Assembly (NCBI RefSeq): GCF_003058265.1
Contig: NZ_QBUK01000013.1
Span: 62,001 to 126,000, forward strand
Length of the DNA: 64,000 nucleotides
Reading direction: 5' to 3'
Source: Flagellimonas amoyensis
GTDB taxonomy: Bacteria > Bacteroidota > Bacteroidia > Flavobacteriales > Flavobacteriaceae
The notes beneath the pieces were generated by a model, which ran no database searches, was not told the origin of the DNA, and saw only the letters and a program-made list of their open reading frames with translations. A program made the translations under genes and the position numbers. Shown here one piece after another: positions 5,023-13,606 of this stretch. Position 1 is the stretch's first letter, and each line of letters begins with the position of its first letter.

Positions 5023-5366
5023 CGTCACCCTGAACTTGTTTCAGGGTCTCACTTTAGTAATCCAATATTTTTAATGTTGGATTTTGTTCTTTAATCAAAT
5101 TAATTTTCCAATCGTGGTGCCAGTTCTTCAATTGTTTTTCCCTTGCAATTGCTTGATCAATATCCGAGAAAACTTCAAAATACACCAAATCTGTCAGATT
5201 GTACTTTTTAGTAAACTTTGAACCACTTCCTTCTTGGTGTTCCACTACCCTTTTGGTTAAATTAGATGTCACCCCAATATAAAATGTTGTTCTGTACGTA
5301 TTGGTCATGATGTAAACAAAACTTTGCTCCATTCCTATGCGATGCCGAAACAGGTTCGGCATGACG
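5023..5366. mobile_element. candidate GIY-YIG unit bounded by inverted hairpin repeats
   Basis: A 344-bp stretch begins with hairpin C (5023-5051, arms CCCTGAA/TTCAGGG, loop CTTGT) and ends with hairpin B (5341-5366, arms ATGCCGAA/TTCGGCAT, loop ACAGG). The outer bases are CGTCA and TGACG. Hairpin C starts two bases after the nuclease stop codon and hairpin B lies 8 bases before its likely ATG, so almost nothing but the gene is enclosed. Mobility is inferred from this layout and from the position inside a biosynthetic operon. No target duplication is evident. Confidence 0.45.
5054..5332 (-). CDS. GIY-YIG single-domain nuclease (YhbQ/UPF0213-like)
   Basis: A 92-residue protein that is essentially one GIY-YIG domain: MEQSFVYIMTN supplies the first strand (YIM in the GIY place), FYIGVT the YIG motif with Arg in LTKRVVEH, and the later AIAREKQLKNW helix holds the metal-binding Glu. 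An upstream in-frame ATG at 5362 lies inside hairpin repeat B and would add ten residues encoded by the repeat; the MEQ start fits the family better. The family are small predicted DNA nucleases, mostly uncharacterised. It is an intruder in the his operon, bounded by hairpins on both sides. Confidence 0.8.
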   Translation of the reverse strand: MEQSFVYIMTNTYRTTFYIGVTSNLTKRVVEHQEGSGSKFTKKYNLTDLVYFEVFSDIDQAIAREKQLKNWHHDWKINLIKEQNPTLKILDY

Positions 5367-5888
5367 TTATTCGTTTTTCACATTAAGATCCACTCCATCA
5401 TAAAACCCCAAATCTTTGTTTTCCAATAATTTGGTCCAAAGCGCAATCTGCCCAGTGTGGTAGGACAGGTGTTCCGTAACATGGATGATGTTCCCCACCC
5501 CTGAAAAGTTGAATCCCTGCACAAATCTCTTGCGCAGTAGTTCATCTAAGGGCGCCTCATAAAATGCCCTTTTGGCCTCGTCAATGGTGTCGGACAGTTT
5601 TTGGATCAGTTCCGCTTTGGTATACCCTGATGTGGCTTCAAATTCCTCGTCGCGCTTGCGATTGTCTTCTTCATTTTTGATGGAAGCGATTCCATATTGT
5701 GTGATGTTGCCACACAAATGCAGCATCAAATTCCCAATGCTGTTGCTGGACTCGTTTGGTTTCTGCCAAATTTTGTCCTCGGGCAATTTATCCAAGCAGA
5801 TTTTGATCATGCGAAGGCTCTCGTTCATTCGATAGCCCACGTTCCAAGTCAGTTCATCTTGAAGTTCTTTTTCCTTATCCATTTTCAA
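5367..5888 (-). CDS. DinB superfamily protein
   Basis: A 173-residue four-helix-bundle protein of the DinB/YfiT type. Possible metal-binding histidines are in LMLHLCGN and in [13 protein letters not shown] near the C-terminus. Members include thiol-dependent transferases and many of unknown function. The start overlaps the end of hisA by 14 bases (start could be 5882, MDKEK), so it is co-translated with the his operon although it has no known role in histidine synthesis. Its stop is at the edge of hairpin repeat B. Confidence 0.8.
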
Positions 5889-6609: not shown

Positions 6610-7026
6610 TTAATCATATTTTGCGCGGTCGATGGCCAACCACATTTCTGAATTACCTACTCTTTCAAAACCGAATGCCTCATATAAGGTGTGGGCATCC
6701 TTCGTTTTTAGCGCAACCGTTTTTACAGTTTGTACATCGGGTCTGTCCATGATGTGCTTGATCAGCATTTTACCCAATCCCCGACCTTTGTAGGGGTCAA
6801 ATATCACCACGTCCATGATGTACGCGAATACCACGGAATCGGTCAACAATCGGGCAAAACCTATCTGTTCGTCATCAGAATTGAAAAGTCCAAAGCAAAT
6901 GCTGTTATCAATGGTTCGCTTGGTTTCTTCCGGACTTCTGTATCCGCCCCAATAGGTGGCCTTGATTTCTTTATGGACTTTTTCGATGTCCAACCTATCC
7001 TTATTCTCAGAAATGTAGAATTCCAT
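6610..7026 (-). CDS. GNAT family N-acetyltransferase
   Basis: A 138-residue acetyltransferase of the GNAT fold. The acetyl-CoA pyrophosphate loop is visible as DPYKGRGLGKMLIKHIM (about residues 79-95), preceded by strand AYIMDVVIF. It starts directly after the stop of hisH (no gap) and ends three bases before hisA, so it is translated as part of the his operon. The substrate is unknown; nothing in the sequence links it to a histidine intermediate. Confidence 0.85.
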   Translation of the reverse strand: MEFYISENKDRLDIEKVHKEIKATYWGGYRSPEETKRTIDNSICFGLFNSDDEQIGFARLLTDSVVFAYIMDVVIFDPYKGRGLGKMLIKHIMDRPDVQTVKTVALKTKDAHTLYEAFGFERVGNSEMWLAIDRAKYD

Positions 7027-9997: not shown

Positions 9998-11287
9998 TTA
10001 GTTTGGTTTTATTGCATTTAAGCGAAGCGTCACCGCATTTTTATGGGCCTGTAATCCTTCGGCATCCGCCATCAATTCAATGGAAGGACCTATGGCTTCC
10101 ATTCCTTCTTTGGATATTTTTTGAAAGGTCATGCTTTTCATAAAACTGTCCAGATTTACCCCACTGTATTGTTTGGCATAGCCGTTCGTAGGCAGCGTAT
10201 GGTTCGTCCCAGAAGCATAATCACCAGCACTTTCTGGAGTATAATTACCGATGAAAACGGAACCGGCATTTTGGATGTTCTGGAGGTAAAAATCCTCATT
10301 TTCAACACAGACAATAAAATGTTCCGGGCCGTAGTCATTGATCAAATCGATGGCTGTTTCATCATTCTGCACCAAGATGAGCTTGCTGTTCGCAATCGAT
10401 TTTTCTGCAATAGCTACTCTGGGTAATTCTTTGATCTGCGATTCAATTTCTTGTTCCACGGCATTAATCAACTTTTTCGACGTGGAAACCAGCATGACTT
10501 GACTATCGGTCCCATGCTCTGCTTGGCTCAACAAATCCGAAGCCACAAAGGCAGGGTTGGCAGAATTATCTGCTACAACCAAAAGCTCGCTCGGTCCGGC
10601 TGGCATATCGATGGCAACTCCATATTTAGTGGCCAATTGTTTTGCCACCGTTACAAACTGGTTCCCAGGGCCAAATATTTTGAACACATTGGGAATGGTT
10701 TCCGTTCCGAACGCCATCCCTGCAATAGCCTGAATACCACCTACTTTAAATATTTTTGTCACTCCACACAGTTGTGCAGCGTAGAGGATGGTCGGGTTTA
10801 TGTTTCCCTTTTTGTCCGGCGGCGTACACAAAATGATTTCTCCACAACCCGCCAATTTTGCGGGAACAGCCAACATCAAAATGGTCGAGAACAGGGGTGC
10901 TGTGCCACCGGGAATGTATAGCCCCACTTTTTGGATGGGTCTCTTTTCTTGCCAACACCTTACCCCGGGCATGGTTTCCATTTCCACCTTGGTTGTTCTT
11001 TGGTCGGCATGGAATTTTTCTATGTTGGATTTTGCCAAGGAAATGGCTTTTTTCAATTCGGATGGAACCGATTCGATTGCCGTTTCGATTTCCGCTGTTG
11101 TCACCAAAAAGGTATCTAATTGGACCCGGTCAAACTGGTCTGTATACTTTTTGATGGCCCCATCACCATTTGTTTGCACCTCCTCAAAAATGGACTCTAC
11201 GATCTTCTCAATATCGGCCACCGTTTGGGTTGGCCGTCTGAGTATCTCGGGCCAGTCTTCTCTTTTGGGGTTATTGACTCTGTTCAT
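9998..11287 (-). CDS. hisD: histidinol dehydrogenase
   Basis: NAD- and zinc-dependent enzyme that oxidises histidinol to histidine in two steps. At 429 residues it is full length. Characteristic segments are YIPGGTAPLFSTILML, DMPAGPSELLVVAD, LLSQAEHGTDSQ and DYGPEHFIV, which carry the zinc ligands and catalytic Glu/His pair. The start overlaps the end of the upstream GNAT gene by 17 bases. Confidence 0.97.
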   Translation of the reverse strand: MNRVNNPKREDWPEILRRPTQTVADIEKIVESIFEEVQTNGDGAIKKYTDQFDRVQLDTFLVTTAEIETAIESVPSELKKAISLAKSNIEKFHADQRTTKVEMETMPGVRCWQEKRPIQKVGLYIPGGTAPLFSTILMLAVPAKLAGCGEIILCTPPDKKGNINPTILYAAQLCGVTKIFKVGGIQAIAGMAFGTETIPNVFKIFGPGNQFVTVAKQLATKYGVAIDMPAGPSELLVVADNSANPAFVASDLLSQAEHGTDSQVMLVSTSKKLINAVEQEIESQIKELPRVAIAEKSIANSKLILVQNDETAIDLINDYGPEHFIVCVENEDFYLQNIQNAGSVFIGNYTPESAGDYASGTNHTLPTNGYAKQYSGVNLDSFMKSMTFQKISKEGMEAIGPSIELMADAEGLQAHKNAVTLRLNAIKPN

Positions 11288-11726
11288 TTTTCAATTTTTT
11301 TATCATGTGATAGCCTAAGGGGACATATCCATGGGTCTCCCAAAACTTCTTTCCTCTGGTGTTCTCTGCATAGCAGTTCACCTCTGCCGTTTCACAATCG
11401 ATCTCTTTGGCATAGACGAACAAAAAGTCCATCATAAGCTGACCGATACCCTTTCCTTGATAGTTTGGTGCAATCATTACATTGTCTGGTTCCACATGCT
11501 TGCCTGCATAGAGTTTGTTCAATACCCATACCCCACAAATGCCGATCAATTCCTCTTGGTCATACACCCCAATGCATTTATAGCCCATCGGGATCATTTC
11601 AGTTAATCGATTTTCCAACACCGCCAGGGGAATTTTTTCTCTATTGAGGATATACGCCAAGGGCAAAATGTCCTTGAGTTTTTCCTGCGGAATCCATTGT
11701 ATGGTGTAGGGTGTTTCCATCTTCAA
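11271..11726 (-). CDS. GNAT family N-acetyltransferase
   Basis: A 151-residue acetyltransferase with the acetyl-CoA binding motif NYQGKGIGQLMMDFL (about residues 89-103) after strand VEPDNVMIAP. It starts three bases after hisG and overlaps hisD by 17 bases, so it is transcribed and translated with the his operon. It is not similar in length or sequence to the other GNAT gene in this operon. Substrate unknown. Confidence 0.85.
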   Translation of the reverse strand: MKMETPYTIQWIPQEKLKDILPLAYILNREKIPLAVLENRLTEMIPMGYKCIGVYDQEELIGICGVWVLNKLYAGKHVEPDNVMIAPNYQGKGIGQLMMDFLFVYAKEIDCETAEVNCYAENTRGKKFWETHGYVPLGYHMIKKLKNEQSQ

Positions 11727-11729
11727 AAA

Positions 11730-12587
11730 CTAAAGGACCATTTTTTCGATAGGACAGACCAAGATACCCTCGGCACCGGCTTGCTTCAGTTCATCAATGA
11801 CCTCCCAGAAAGTATCCCGGGTGATCACGGAGTGAACGGAGCTCCAACCCTCTTCTGCCAGGGGCAATACTGTGGGGCTACGCATTCCGGGCAAAATGGA
11901 AATGATTTCGTCCAGTTTGTCGTTTGGGGCGTTCAGCAGAATGTATTTGTTCTGTCTGGCCTGGAGCACGGATTGGATCCTGAACTGCATTTTTTTCAGG
12001 ATTTCTTTGCGCTCCTCGGATATTTTGGGTGAAACGGCCAGTACGGCCTCACTTTGCAAAATCACCTCTACTTCCTTCAAATTGTTCTTGAACAGGGTAC
12101 TGCCACTGGACACGATATCACAAATACCATAGGCCAAACCAATGTTGGGGGCTATTTCCACCGATCCATTGATCAGGTGCAGGTCGGCAGTGATCCCTTT
12201 GGATTTGAGGTATTCGTTCACCGTGTGCGGGTATGAGGTGGCGACCTTCTTTCCTTCAAAATCCTTGACCGAATTGTACTTGACCCCTTTGGGTACTGCA
12301 AGGGATACGCGACATTTGGAAAAATTCAGTTTTTCCGCCACGGCAATGTCATTGCCTTTTTCCACCAATACATTTTCCCCGATGATGGCAATGTCCACTA
12401 CCCCATCCCTTAAATATTGGGGAATGTCCCCGTTCCGCAGATAGAAGACTTCCAAAGGAAAGTTTCTGGCGGTGGCCTTTAATTGGTCCTTTCCATTATC
12501 GATGGAAATACCACAATCCTTCAAGATCTGAAGGGAATCCTCGTTCAAGCGACCGCTTTTTTGTACAGCAATCCGAATTTTTGTCAT
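11730..12587 (-). CDS. hisG: ATP phosphoribosyltransferase, long form
   Basis: First enzyme of histidine synthesis: joins ATP and PRPP. The 285-residue length and the C-terminal ferredoxin-like regulatory domain mark the long, HisZ-independent form that is feedback-inhibited by histidine. The start is MTKIRIAVQKSGRL; an earlier in-frame ATG (12632) would place the start inside the attenuator tail. Recognisable pieces are DIAIIGENVL and the PRPP loop region GICDIVSSGSTL. Expression should depend on read-through of the attenuator at 12633-12658. Confidence 0.96.
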   Translation of the reverse strand: MTKIRIAVQKSGRLNEDSLQILKDCGISIDNGKDQLKATARNFPLEVFYLRNGDIPQYLRDGVVDIAIIGENVLVEKGNDIAVAEKLNFSKCRVSLAVPKGVKYNSVKDFEGKKVATSYPHTVNEYLKSKGITADLHLINGSVEIAPNIGLAYGICDIVSSGSTLFKNNLKEVEVILQSEAVLAVSPKISEERKEILKKMQFRIQSVLQARQNKYILLNAPNDKLDEIISILPGMRSPTVLPLAEEGWSSVHSVITRDTFWEVIDELKQAGAEGILVCPIEKMVL

Positions 12588-12623
12588 TAGTTCAACTGTT
12601 ATGTTCAAGAAACCAAATGGGCA

Positions 12624-12658
12624 TAAAAACAAAACCCGCTTGATTTCTCAAACGGGTT
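12624..12658 (-). terminator. attenuator terminator of the his operon
   Basis: On the minus strand AACCCGTTTGA (12658-12648) pairs with TCAAGCGGGTT (12643-12633) over 11 bp, with one G-U pair and a GAAA tetraloop, followed by a U-rich run (12632-12624). It lies between the leader peptide stop and hisG. The 5' arm CGTTTGAG (12654-12647) can pair instead with CTCAAGCG in the leader coding sequence (12702-12695), which would destroy the terminator. Confidence 0.85.
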
Positions 12659-12688
12659 AGAATATATTTTAGTTACAACAATACACTT

Positions 12689-12745
12689 CTATCTCGCTTG
12701 AGGGCAAGTATAAAAATGGTGATGATGTACAGTGTTATTTCTCAT
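12689..12745 (-). CDS. hisL: his operon leader peptide with four consecutive His codons
   Basis: An 18-residue frame reading MRNNTVHHHHFYTCPQAR. The His codons CAT CAT CAC CAT occupy 12727-12716. The Pro-Gln-Ala codons form CTCAAGCG (12702-12695), which is complementary to the 5' arm of the downstream terminator. This is the arrangement of classical attenuation: a ribosome stalled for lack of charged His-tRNA leaves CTCAAGCG free to pair with the terminator arm and lets polymerase through; a ribosome that reaches the stop covers it and the terminator forms. The peptide itself probably has no other role. Confidence 0.85.
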   Translation of the reverse strand: MRNNTVHHHHFYTCPQAR

Positions 12746-12752
12746 TACGTGT

Positions 12753-12780
12753 CAAATGTAGAACATATTTTTTTATCAAA
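12753..12780 (-). promoter_or_regulatory. his operon promoter
   Basis: On the minus strand TACATTTG (12760-12753) matches the Bacteroidota -7 box TAnnTTTG exactly, and TTTG (12780-12777) sits 16 bases upstream as a possible -33 element. The box ends only 7 bases before the leader ATG at 12745, so the start of transcription should fall at or just before the ATG. No other convincing promoter for the his operon is seen. Confidence 0.65.
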
Positions 12781-12790
12781 AAAGGGGAAT

Positions 12791-13606
12791 TTAGTTATTT
12801 CCCAAAATAAGGGGGAGCCCATCATCGCCCGATCCCACTACGACCACTTTGGCATTTGGCGACTGGGCAAGTTTCAAAGTTGCTTCAATTCCCTTGTCCT
12901 TTAATATTTTATCCGTCAGGGATGCGCTCAATATTTGATTGGCGTCCGCCTTACCTTGGGCTTCAATCCGTACCTTTTCGGCTTCCTTTTGGGCGGTCAC
13001 CAACCGGAATTCGTATTCCAAGGATTCCTGTTCCTGTTTCAATTTACGTTCAATGGCGTCCTTGATGGTTGGCGGCAGGGTCACGTCCCTTACCAACACT
13101 TCGTTGAGCTGGATGTATTGGTCCTCCACTATTTTCTGGGTCTCCTCAAAAATTTCCTGTTGAATGGCATCCCGCTTGCTGGAATAGAGTTGTTCCGGGG
13201 TGTATCGTCCCACCACGCTACGGGCAGCGGATCGGATAGCGGGCAACAGCACACGATCTACATATTGTTCGCTTTTTTCCTGGTGCAATTTGCCCAATTC
13301 GTTGTATCTGGGCTGAAACCATACCGAAGCTTCCAGTTTGATGTCCAATCCGTTGGAGGACAGCACGTTCATTTTTTCCAGCCTTTCCTGCTGACGGGCC
13401 TCATAAATGAACACTTTGTTCCAAGGGGCCACAATATGAAAACCTTCGTCCAGTGGCGGCTCATCGGTGACGACACCTCCGGCAAAGGTCTTGTACAAAA
13501 CCCCAGCTTCACCGGAACCGATGGTCACTGCCGATTTTGAAATGAATATGATGAGAATAATGACACCTGCAATGGCAGGCAATGCAATCTTTGGTAATTT
13601 ATCCAT
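12791..13606 (-). CDS. prohibitin-family SPFH membrane protein
   Basis: A 271-residue protein starting MDKLPKIALPAIAGVI, with one N-terminal membrane span (about residues 5-26) followed by an SPFH/band-7 domain and a helical segment rich in Glu, Lys and Ala (LKQEQESLEYEFRLVTAQKEAEKV), as in prohibitins. These proteins form ring-shaped membrane scaffolds and often modulate proteases. It starts 11 bases after the stop of the VWA gene and probably shares its transcript. An in-frame ATG 45 bases upstream would overlap that gene and is less likely. Confidence 0.85.
   Translation of the reverse strand: MDKLPKIALPAIAGVIILIIFISKSAVTIGSGEAGVLYKTFAGGVVTDEPPLDEGFHIVAPWNKVFIYEARQQERLEKMNVLSSNGLDIKLEASVWFQPRYNELGKLHQEKSEQYVDRVLLPAIRSAARSVVGRYTPEQLYSSKRDAIQQEIFEETQKIVEDQYIQLNEVLVRDVTLPPTIKDAIERKLKQEQESLEYEFRLVTAQKEAEKVRIEAQGKADANQILSASLTDKILKDKGIEATLKLAQSPNAKVVVVGSGDDGLPLILGNN

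Follow-up and report, generated by a model that had tools for sequence, protein, structure and literature searches.

The region upstream of hisG in the Flagellimonas amoyensis genome is most probably a classical ribosome-mediated transcription attenuator of the his operon, a reading to which we give a probability of roughly 0.93. It was reached by comparing and folding sequences from a 64,000-nucleotide stretch of DNA (the window), from elsewhere in the same genome and from relatives across the Bacteroidota. The evidence consists of the anatomy of the region, its conservation, a constraint on the His codons, mutually exclusive RNA pairings and some compensatory change, all of which are seen directly in the sequences. 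Every element of the region, read base by base, lies on the - strand (Table 1), with the leader about 160 nt before hisG. The upstream gene, which shares this strand and has its stop codon ending at 12791, is presumably of prohibitin/SPFH type. The hisG assignment is supported by 88–97% identity to the first 18 named hisG loci, from Allomuricauda and Flagellimonas relatives, and hisG is followed on the same strand by hisD, C, B, H, A, F and I (named by reading; HisG alone was tested), which places the switch ahead of the entire his cluster. Within the cluster there are also - strand ORFs that we take not to be his genes (5054–5888, 6610–7026 and 11271–11726), and the non-his ORFs, judged by eye, are presumably two GNAT acetyltransferase-like, one GIY-YIG-like and one DinB-like.

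Table 1. Elements of the hisG attenuator region, in positions of the window.
Feature	Positions	Strand	Basis or remark
-33-like TTTG	12777..12780	-	16 nt before the -7 box; consensus match only
-7 box TACATTTG	12753..12760	-	consensus TAnnTTTG; ends 7 nt before the leader ATG
Predicted 5' UTR, ~3 nt	12746..12748	-	RNA start predicted from the -7 box position
Leader ORF MRNNTVHHHHFYTCPQAR, 18 codons	12689..12745	-	ATG 12745-12743, stop TAG 12691-12689
Regulatory His codons CAT CAT CAC CAT	12716..12727	-	sequence and codon-position constraint
Segment 1:2 hairpin (protector/pause), if uncovered by ribosome	12684..12718	-	predicted fold
Segment 2 CTCAAGCG, antiterminator 5' side	12695..12702	-	inside the leader
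Segment 3 CGTTTGAG, common to antiterminator and terminator 5' arm	12647..12654	-	
Intrinsic terminator AACCCGTTTGA-GAAA-TCAAGCGGGTT (segments 3:4, GAAA loop)	12633..12658	-	
Terminator T-rich tail TTGTTTTTAT	12623..12632	-	sequence
hisG, first gene of the controlled his operon	11730..12587	-	ATG 12587; identity to hisG of Allomuricauda and relatives

The original prediction, made from the letters of the window, had described an 18-residue leader with four consecutive His codons, a GNRA-capped terminator before hisG, and a leader segment complementary to the 5' arm of that terminator. All three are present as described: the loop is GAAA, a T-rich tail comes after the stem, and segments 2 and 3 pair at 8/8 positions with one G.U. 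The distance from the His codons to segment 2, which had been put at about 14 bases, was close as a spacing, and the exact count from the last His codon is 13 nt. From the end of the terminator stem to the hisG ATG there are 45 nt. The leader region as a whole is more stably folded than expected (z = -4.37, with 0/200 shuffles equally stable). A generic terminator scan returned 4 sites in the stretch scanned where 3.3 were expected, which is weak evidence alone.

Up to the terminator, the predicted fold of the leader in the window is the segment 1:2 hairpin (-16.1 kcal/mol); in the family a hairpin of this type covering at least half of segment 2 is predicted in only 72/181 loci. When the footprint of a ribosome with His 1 or His 4 in its A site is masked in RNAfold, segment 2 is free, and with segment 4 absent these folds give an extended antiterminator of -17.6 kcal/mol. 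With the ribosome at the stop codon, the terminator alone forms (-16.2 kcal/mol). Once segment 4 is allowed, the terminator is favoured in all masked folds, that of the stalled ribosome included, and the switch must therefore be kinetic, as in known attenuators. We infer ribosome stalling, termination and a response to histidine from these features, in the following sequence. RNA polymerase would start 2–4 nt upstream of the leader ATG, and a ribosome would load on the leader at once and trail the polymerase. With ample charged tRNA-His the ribosome would reach the stop codon and cover segment 2, leaving segments 3 and 4 to make the terminator, and transcription would stop before hisG. When charged tRNA-His is scarce, the ribosome would stall at the His codons with its front edge just before 12702; segment 2, being free, would pair with segment 3, the terminator would be blocked, and hisG and the later genes would be transcribed.

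Conservation was followed in the Flavobacteriaceae using a sample of 299 genomes, 251 of which hold a hisG match. A set of 190 hisG upstream regions was drawn from the 30 nearest genomes of this sample, 80 named loci and 80 further regions taken down the list of the same sample; it is ordered by HisG similarity and includes near-duplicates, so the regions are not all independent. Conservation of the leader and its His codons in relatives had been proposed as a test of the original prediction, and a short ORF with a His run is found in 190/190 regions (110/110 and 80/80). A short ORF containing HHH within 300 nt of hisG occurs in 182/190, compared with 3 on the reverse strand and 0–1 in five Markov shuffles. 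Four loci (L132, L157, L164, L125) have one Arg or Gln codon interrupting the His run (HRHH, HQHH), with leader and terminator kept. A relaxed leader–attenuator pattern was also scanned across whole genomes, giving matches in 161/298 family genomes and exactly one in the window's genome, at the hisG attenuator site. Among the matches listed there were none from the backward control, and the pattern was absent from the 20 listed genomes without hisG (of 48 such genomes, 28 being unlisted). At least two of the matches, in G077 and G159, look like chance occurrences elsewhere in the genome. As the relaxed motif is still strict, its absence from a genome means little. One further genome, G138, has two copies of the his leader motif (contigs C81 and C126) and one hisG match, which may reflect an assembly duplicate or a second controlled gene.

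The -7 element of Bacteroidota is reported as TAnnTTTG, with RNA starting 4–5 nt after it (PMC6847099; PMC9723704, each available to us in part), and it is from boxes of this kind that we infer promoter use and RNA start. The best -7 box lies 5–8 nt before the ATG in 107/190 his leaders and at exactly 7 nt in 78, with a second peak of best-box distances at 17–19 nt. In the near group, T-A-x-x-T-T-T dominates positions -15 to -9 (74, 85, 99, 99 and 79%), while the last base of the box is A in 47% and the consensus G in 31%, the final G often being missing. Where the gap is 13–24 nt (57 loci), the sequence is A-rich from -1 to about -16. For comparison, the best box falls 0–8 nt from the start in 4/42 control genes of the window over a 60-nt range, equal to that used for the leaders, or 7/42 over a 40-nt range, the control starts being first ATGs that are unverified. 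Since the best box is mostly 5–8 nt before the ATG in the Muricauda–Maribacter group, the leader there should be almost leaderless. We think it probable that the his and trp attenuators of the Muricauda–Maribacter–Zobellia group, and the ilv attenuator of the window's genome, are transcribed as leaderless or near-leaderless RNA, with the ORF 0–4 nt from its start. With so short a 5' end, the sensing ribosome would have to load on the 5' end as it emerges, without a Shine–Dalgarno or standby site.

The chief alternative accepts the attenuator and gives it a normal 5' UTR, transcribed from a promoter farther upstream or by read-through, so that the near box is not a promoter. We regard this as rather unlikely, while noting that the RNA starts are predicted ones and that in 40/107 near-leaderless loci the best box leads a farther one by no more than one unit (that farther boxes never outscore the near box is largely by construction). 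An exact TAHHTTTG is present within 62 nt in only 80/190 loci, 43 of these having it 5–8 nt before the ATG; the near box more often ends in A than in the consensus G; and the generic scan listed nothing resembling a terminator on the - strand in the gap from the upstream gene to the leader. Against a farther promoter stand the sharp placement of the best box relative to the ATG, uncommon in the control genes, and a similar placement in the trp leaders. These carry WWW in 30/30 loci, the window's genome included, and their box stands at exactly 5 nt from the ATG in 16/30 and within 8 nt in 21/30.

Several other amino acid leaders occur in the window's genome. Upstream of trpE (L235, leader 1333–1389) lies MKLFIANNWWWNNLRQTS, with TATATTTG 5 nt before its ATG; this leader matches the Rfam family Bacteroid-trp. 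Upstream of ilvD (L234, leader 1091–1147), the branched-chain leader MKRNNPVISVVIIVPNLE has TAACATTG 4 nt before its ATG and is followed by a GGGCCTGTATC...GATGCAGGCCC stem; ilv leaders in relatives parsed too unevenly for counts. On the reverse complement of L231 (leader 1357–1428), a Phe/Tyr-rich leader, MTNTYFWNGFYFYFFFKRGTGLL, is followed by a terminator and pheA, and its promoter box is weak. No thrA leader was found in the stretches upstream of two homoserine dehydrogenase matches in the window's genome, stretches which stop short of the far upstream.

By named genera, the near-leaderless form, as judged from the position of the best box, is found in Allomuricauda (9/9), Flagellimonas (10/10), Maribacter (15/16), Zobellia (2/2), Arenibacter (4/4) and Cellulophaga (3/4), and the other form, with an A-rich 5' UTR, in Aquimarina (7/7) and Kordia (2/2). 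The his and trp classes agree in 20/25 genomes holding both (14 near–near, 6 UTR–UTR). The five discordant genomes have distances above 8 nt for his and at most 8 nt for trp by the automatic box choice, which under-calls the near-leaderless class: four of them (L010, L024, L025, L028) show TAnnTTTA 7–8 nt before the his ATG on reading. On a HisG tree of 110 loci the label switches between near and UTR at least 13 times, part of which is box-calling error.

Within the family, the terminator is as widespread as the leader. It was parsed by script in 187/190 family loci, with the wrong stem chosen for L051, and reading shows the stem in the three others as well (L014, with one mismatch, L107 and L110). 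Its sequence is nearly always CCGTTTGA...TCAAACGG or TCAAGCGG. A stem before a gene might also hide the gene's start and so attenuate the translation of hisG rather than its transcription, and translational attenuators are reported (PMC9413887, available in part); this is very unlikely here, given the T-rich tail after the stem and a distance from stem to ATG that is 45 nt in the window and 40–69 nt in 142/186 parsed family loci.

Transcription attenuation requires, in addition, the alternative pairing. Both helices were scored on alignment A1, consisting of 24 sequences thinned to divergent ones. The terminator is paired in 99.6% of cells, with double changes in 3 pairs, and 0/500 shuffles reach its covariation score. 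The antiterminator is paired in 95.3% of cells, compared with 19–49% when the segment is slid; double changes occur in 2/8 core pairs, a count reached by 62/500 shuffles, and its covariation score is reached by 36/500. This covariation is modest because the core hardly varies, so on A1 placement supports the antiterminator more than covariation does. RNAalifold on A1 returns the terminator alone, as expected of mutually exclusive folds, and the antiterminator had to be specified explicitly in order to be counted. Across the wider set, 182/187 parsed loci have a stretch of leader that pairs with the 5' arm of the terminator, a few of them in a shifted register. The register was chosen by pairing, and pairs 4–9 are thus 100% paired by construction in the comparison of 182 loci; the flanking pair is formed in 94/182 where 63 are expected, a count reached by 0/2000 shuffles, which ignore relatedness. 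The pairing is found only in a shifted register in L019, L074 and L096, mismatches fall in the middle of segment 2 in L104, L135, L137, L154 and L161, and no good antiterminator was found in L151. The original prediction had looked to compensatory changes in the terminator/antiterminator pair, and these exist in small number: the three terminator pairs, the two of eight antiterminator pairs, and L180. The last is the best single case, in that its terminator stem is divergent (GCTCGCCT...AGGCGGGC) and the leader segment follows it (ATCGGGTG with CGCCTGAT), making 8 pairs, two of them G.U, in a best-helix search that carries no separate p-value.

The His run is constrained at the codon level, and its variation is mainly at the third base. 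Among the 157 distinct sequences of 17–18 codon leaders, the His codons show 0.025, 0.017 and 0.145 differences per site at bases 1, 2 and 3, and codons 2–6 of the same leaders show 0.379, 0.554 and 0.520. The ..QAR tail at the C-terminus of the leader is also conserved, as it might be if the peptide acted as an arrest peptide or small protein rather than through its codons. That possibility is remote still, as codons 2–6 vary freely (0.38–0.55 differences per site) and the QAR tail encodes segment 2, so that RNA pairing explains its conservation. In six loci (L007, L008, L066, L068, L070, L174) the Q codon is now a stop and segment 2 is retained in the RNA, which indicates that the tail is kept for the RNA and not for the peptide. 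Conservation, codon constraint and some compensatory change thus support the his attenuator with a stalled-ribosome antiterminator that was originally proposed.

Leaders of this type extend well beyond the family. In a phylum sample of 247 genomes, 213 hold a hisG match, and 40 of these hisG regions were chosen to spread over families (6 from the same family, 3 from the same order and 31 from farther away). At least three His in four codons are found in 35/40 regions (29/34 outside the family), with 0 on the reverse strand and 0–2 in shuffles, and the His run is mostly 3–4 codons long in the leaders examined. A leader and a parsed terminator are present in 25 regions, a leader with an unparsed terminator in 10, and no leader in 5. 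In 19 of the 25, pairing between a leader segment and the 5' arm of the terminator exceeds that in shuffles (p < 0.05); these segments, varied in sequence outside the family, include CTACCTGT, GCTTACCG and CCGGCG. The his attenuator therefore seems to be a general feature of the phylum, its RNA sequence replaced and its arrangement kept. The reading as a chance His ORF beside an ordinary intergenic terminator that serves the upstream gene, which would suit the shared strand, the upstream gene's end at 12791 and the near-expected yield of the generic scan, has a negligible chance of being correct: it is refuted by the conservation of the leader in every family region (HHH in 182/190 against 0–3 in controls), and the constrained His codons and the 35/40 phylum leaders also stand against it. 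One locus outside the class (L206, genome G442) has a HisG 60% identical to that of the window, where four others of its family code have 43–46%; its leader MNLLQLHHHRHHHTCSQARW and CCCGTCTGAG stem look flavobacterial, and its his operon was perhaps transferred together with its switch.

The enterobacterial his leader contains seven His codons. This leader (RF00514, His_leader) shares with the flavobacterial one a His run, the 2:3 and 3:4 pairings, a 1:2 pairing in those loci where one is predicted, and an intrinsic terminator before hisG; the flavobacterial His run is shorter (mostly 3–4) and the predicted 5' UTR is about 3 nt. Identity with a known Rfam leader was considered and rejected, for want of a covariance-model match in the window or in 18 hisG regions. 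The window has no Rfam family at gathering score, RF00514 is absent from its seven weak matches up to E = 10, and there is no match to RF00514 in the 18 hisG regions among 20 loci searched. Bacteroid-trp (RF01692) is likewise a leader-peptide attenuator of the same phylum (PMC2864571, available in part); it has Trp codons, and its stem sequence differs. Its match upstream of trpE in the window's genome scores 64.6 bits and has near-leaderless promoter geometry like that of his.

The belief that his attenuation was undocumented in this lineage does not hold. In Flavobacterium psychrophilum, Guerin 2021 described a structured 5' element before hisG which has no Rfam hits and is conserved in further genera of the Flavobacteriaceae, as well as clues of leader-peptide attenuation in amino acid operons of that species (PMC9723704). 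It occupies the same place in the same family, and it is likely identical with the attenuator of the window, although the leader sequence, the antiterminator and a compensatory analysis are absent from the portion of that paper available to us. The window attenuator is thus not new in outline. A review of his genes in the superphylum, in the portion available, speaks of attenuation for S. enterica and E. coli alone (PMC8305728). The near-leaderless form is the least known part of the his attenuator. The abstract of a 2004 study by Vitreschak is said to mention attenuators in Bacteroidetes/Chlorobi. Near-leaderless promoter geometry of a his attenuator was not found in a literature search that bore only narrowly on near-leaderless attenuator leaders in Bacteroidota. 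The closest precedent is trpL of Sinorhizobium meliloti, a classical attenuator with a transcript starting at the leader ATG (PMC7298713, available in part); it concerns trp in an Alphaproteobacterium, and the RNA start is mapped there and only predicted for his here. A mycobacterial leaderless attenuator leader peptide is also named in one reference list. According to the available parts of the transcriptome papers, leaderless RNAs make up 5.5% in F. psychrophilum (PMC9723704), 5' UTRs under 10 nt make up 3.7% in Bacteroides thetaiotaomicron (PMC7366714), and 87% of leaders exceed 10 nt in F. johnsoniae (PMC6847099). If the near-leaderless reading is true, coupling of transcription and translation would begin with the first nucleotides of the RNA, in a phylum otherwise poor in leaderless RNAs, and Aquimarina and Kordia would reach the same switch through an A-rich 5' UTR of about 13–18 nt.

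In practice, the element has no Rfam family match, and its leader of 17–18 codons is below the usual gene-length limits. Classical attenuation needs a ribosome close behind the RNA polymerase, and Bacteroidota are without Shine–Dalgarno sites. As the ribosome must trail the polymerase, a his attenuator that is family-wide, and apparently phylum-wide, would be sequence evidence that transcription and translation are coupled in Bacteroidota. The near-leaderless form would make initiation on the leader directly testable in this clade, with the sister genera that have a 5' UTR as a natural comparison.
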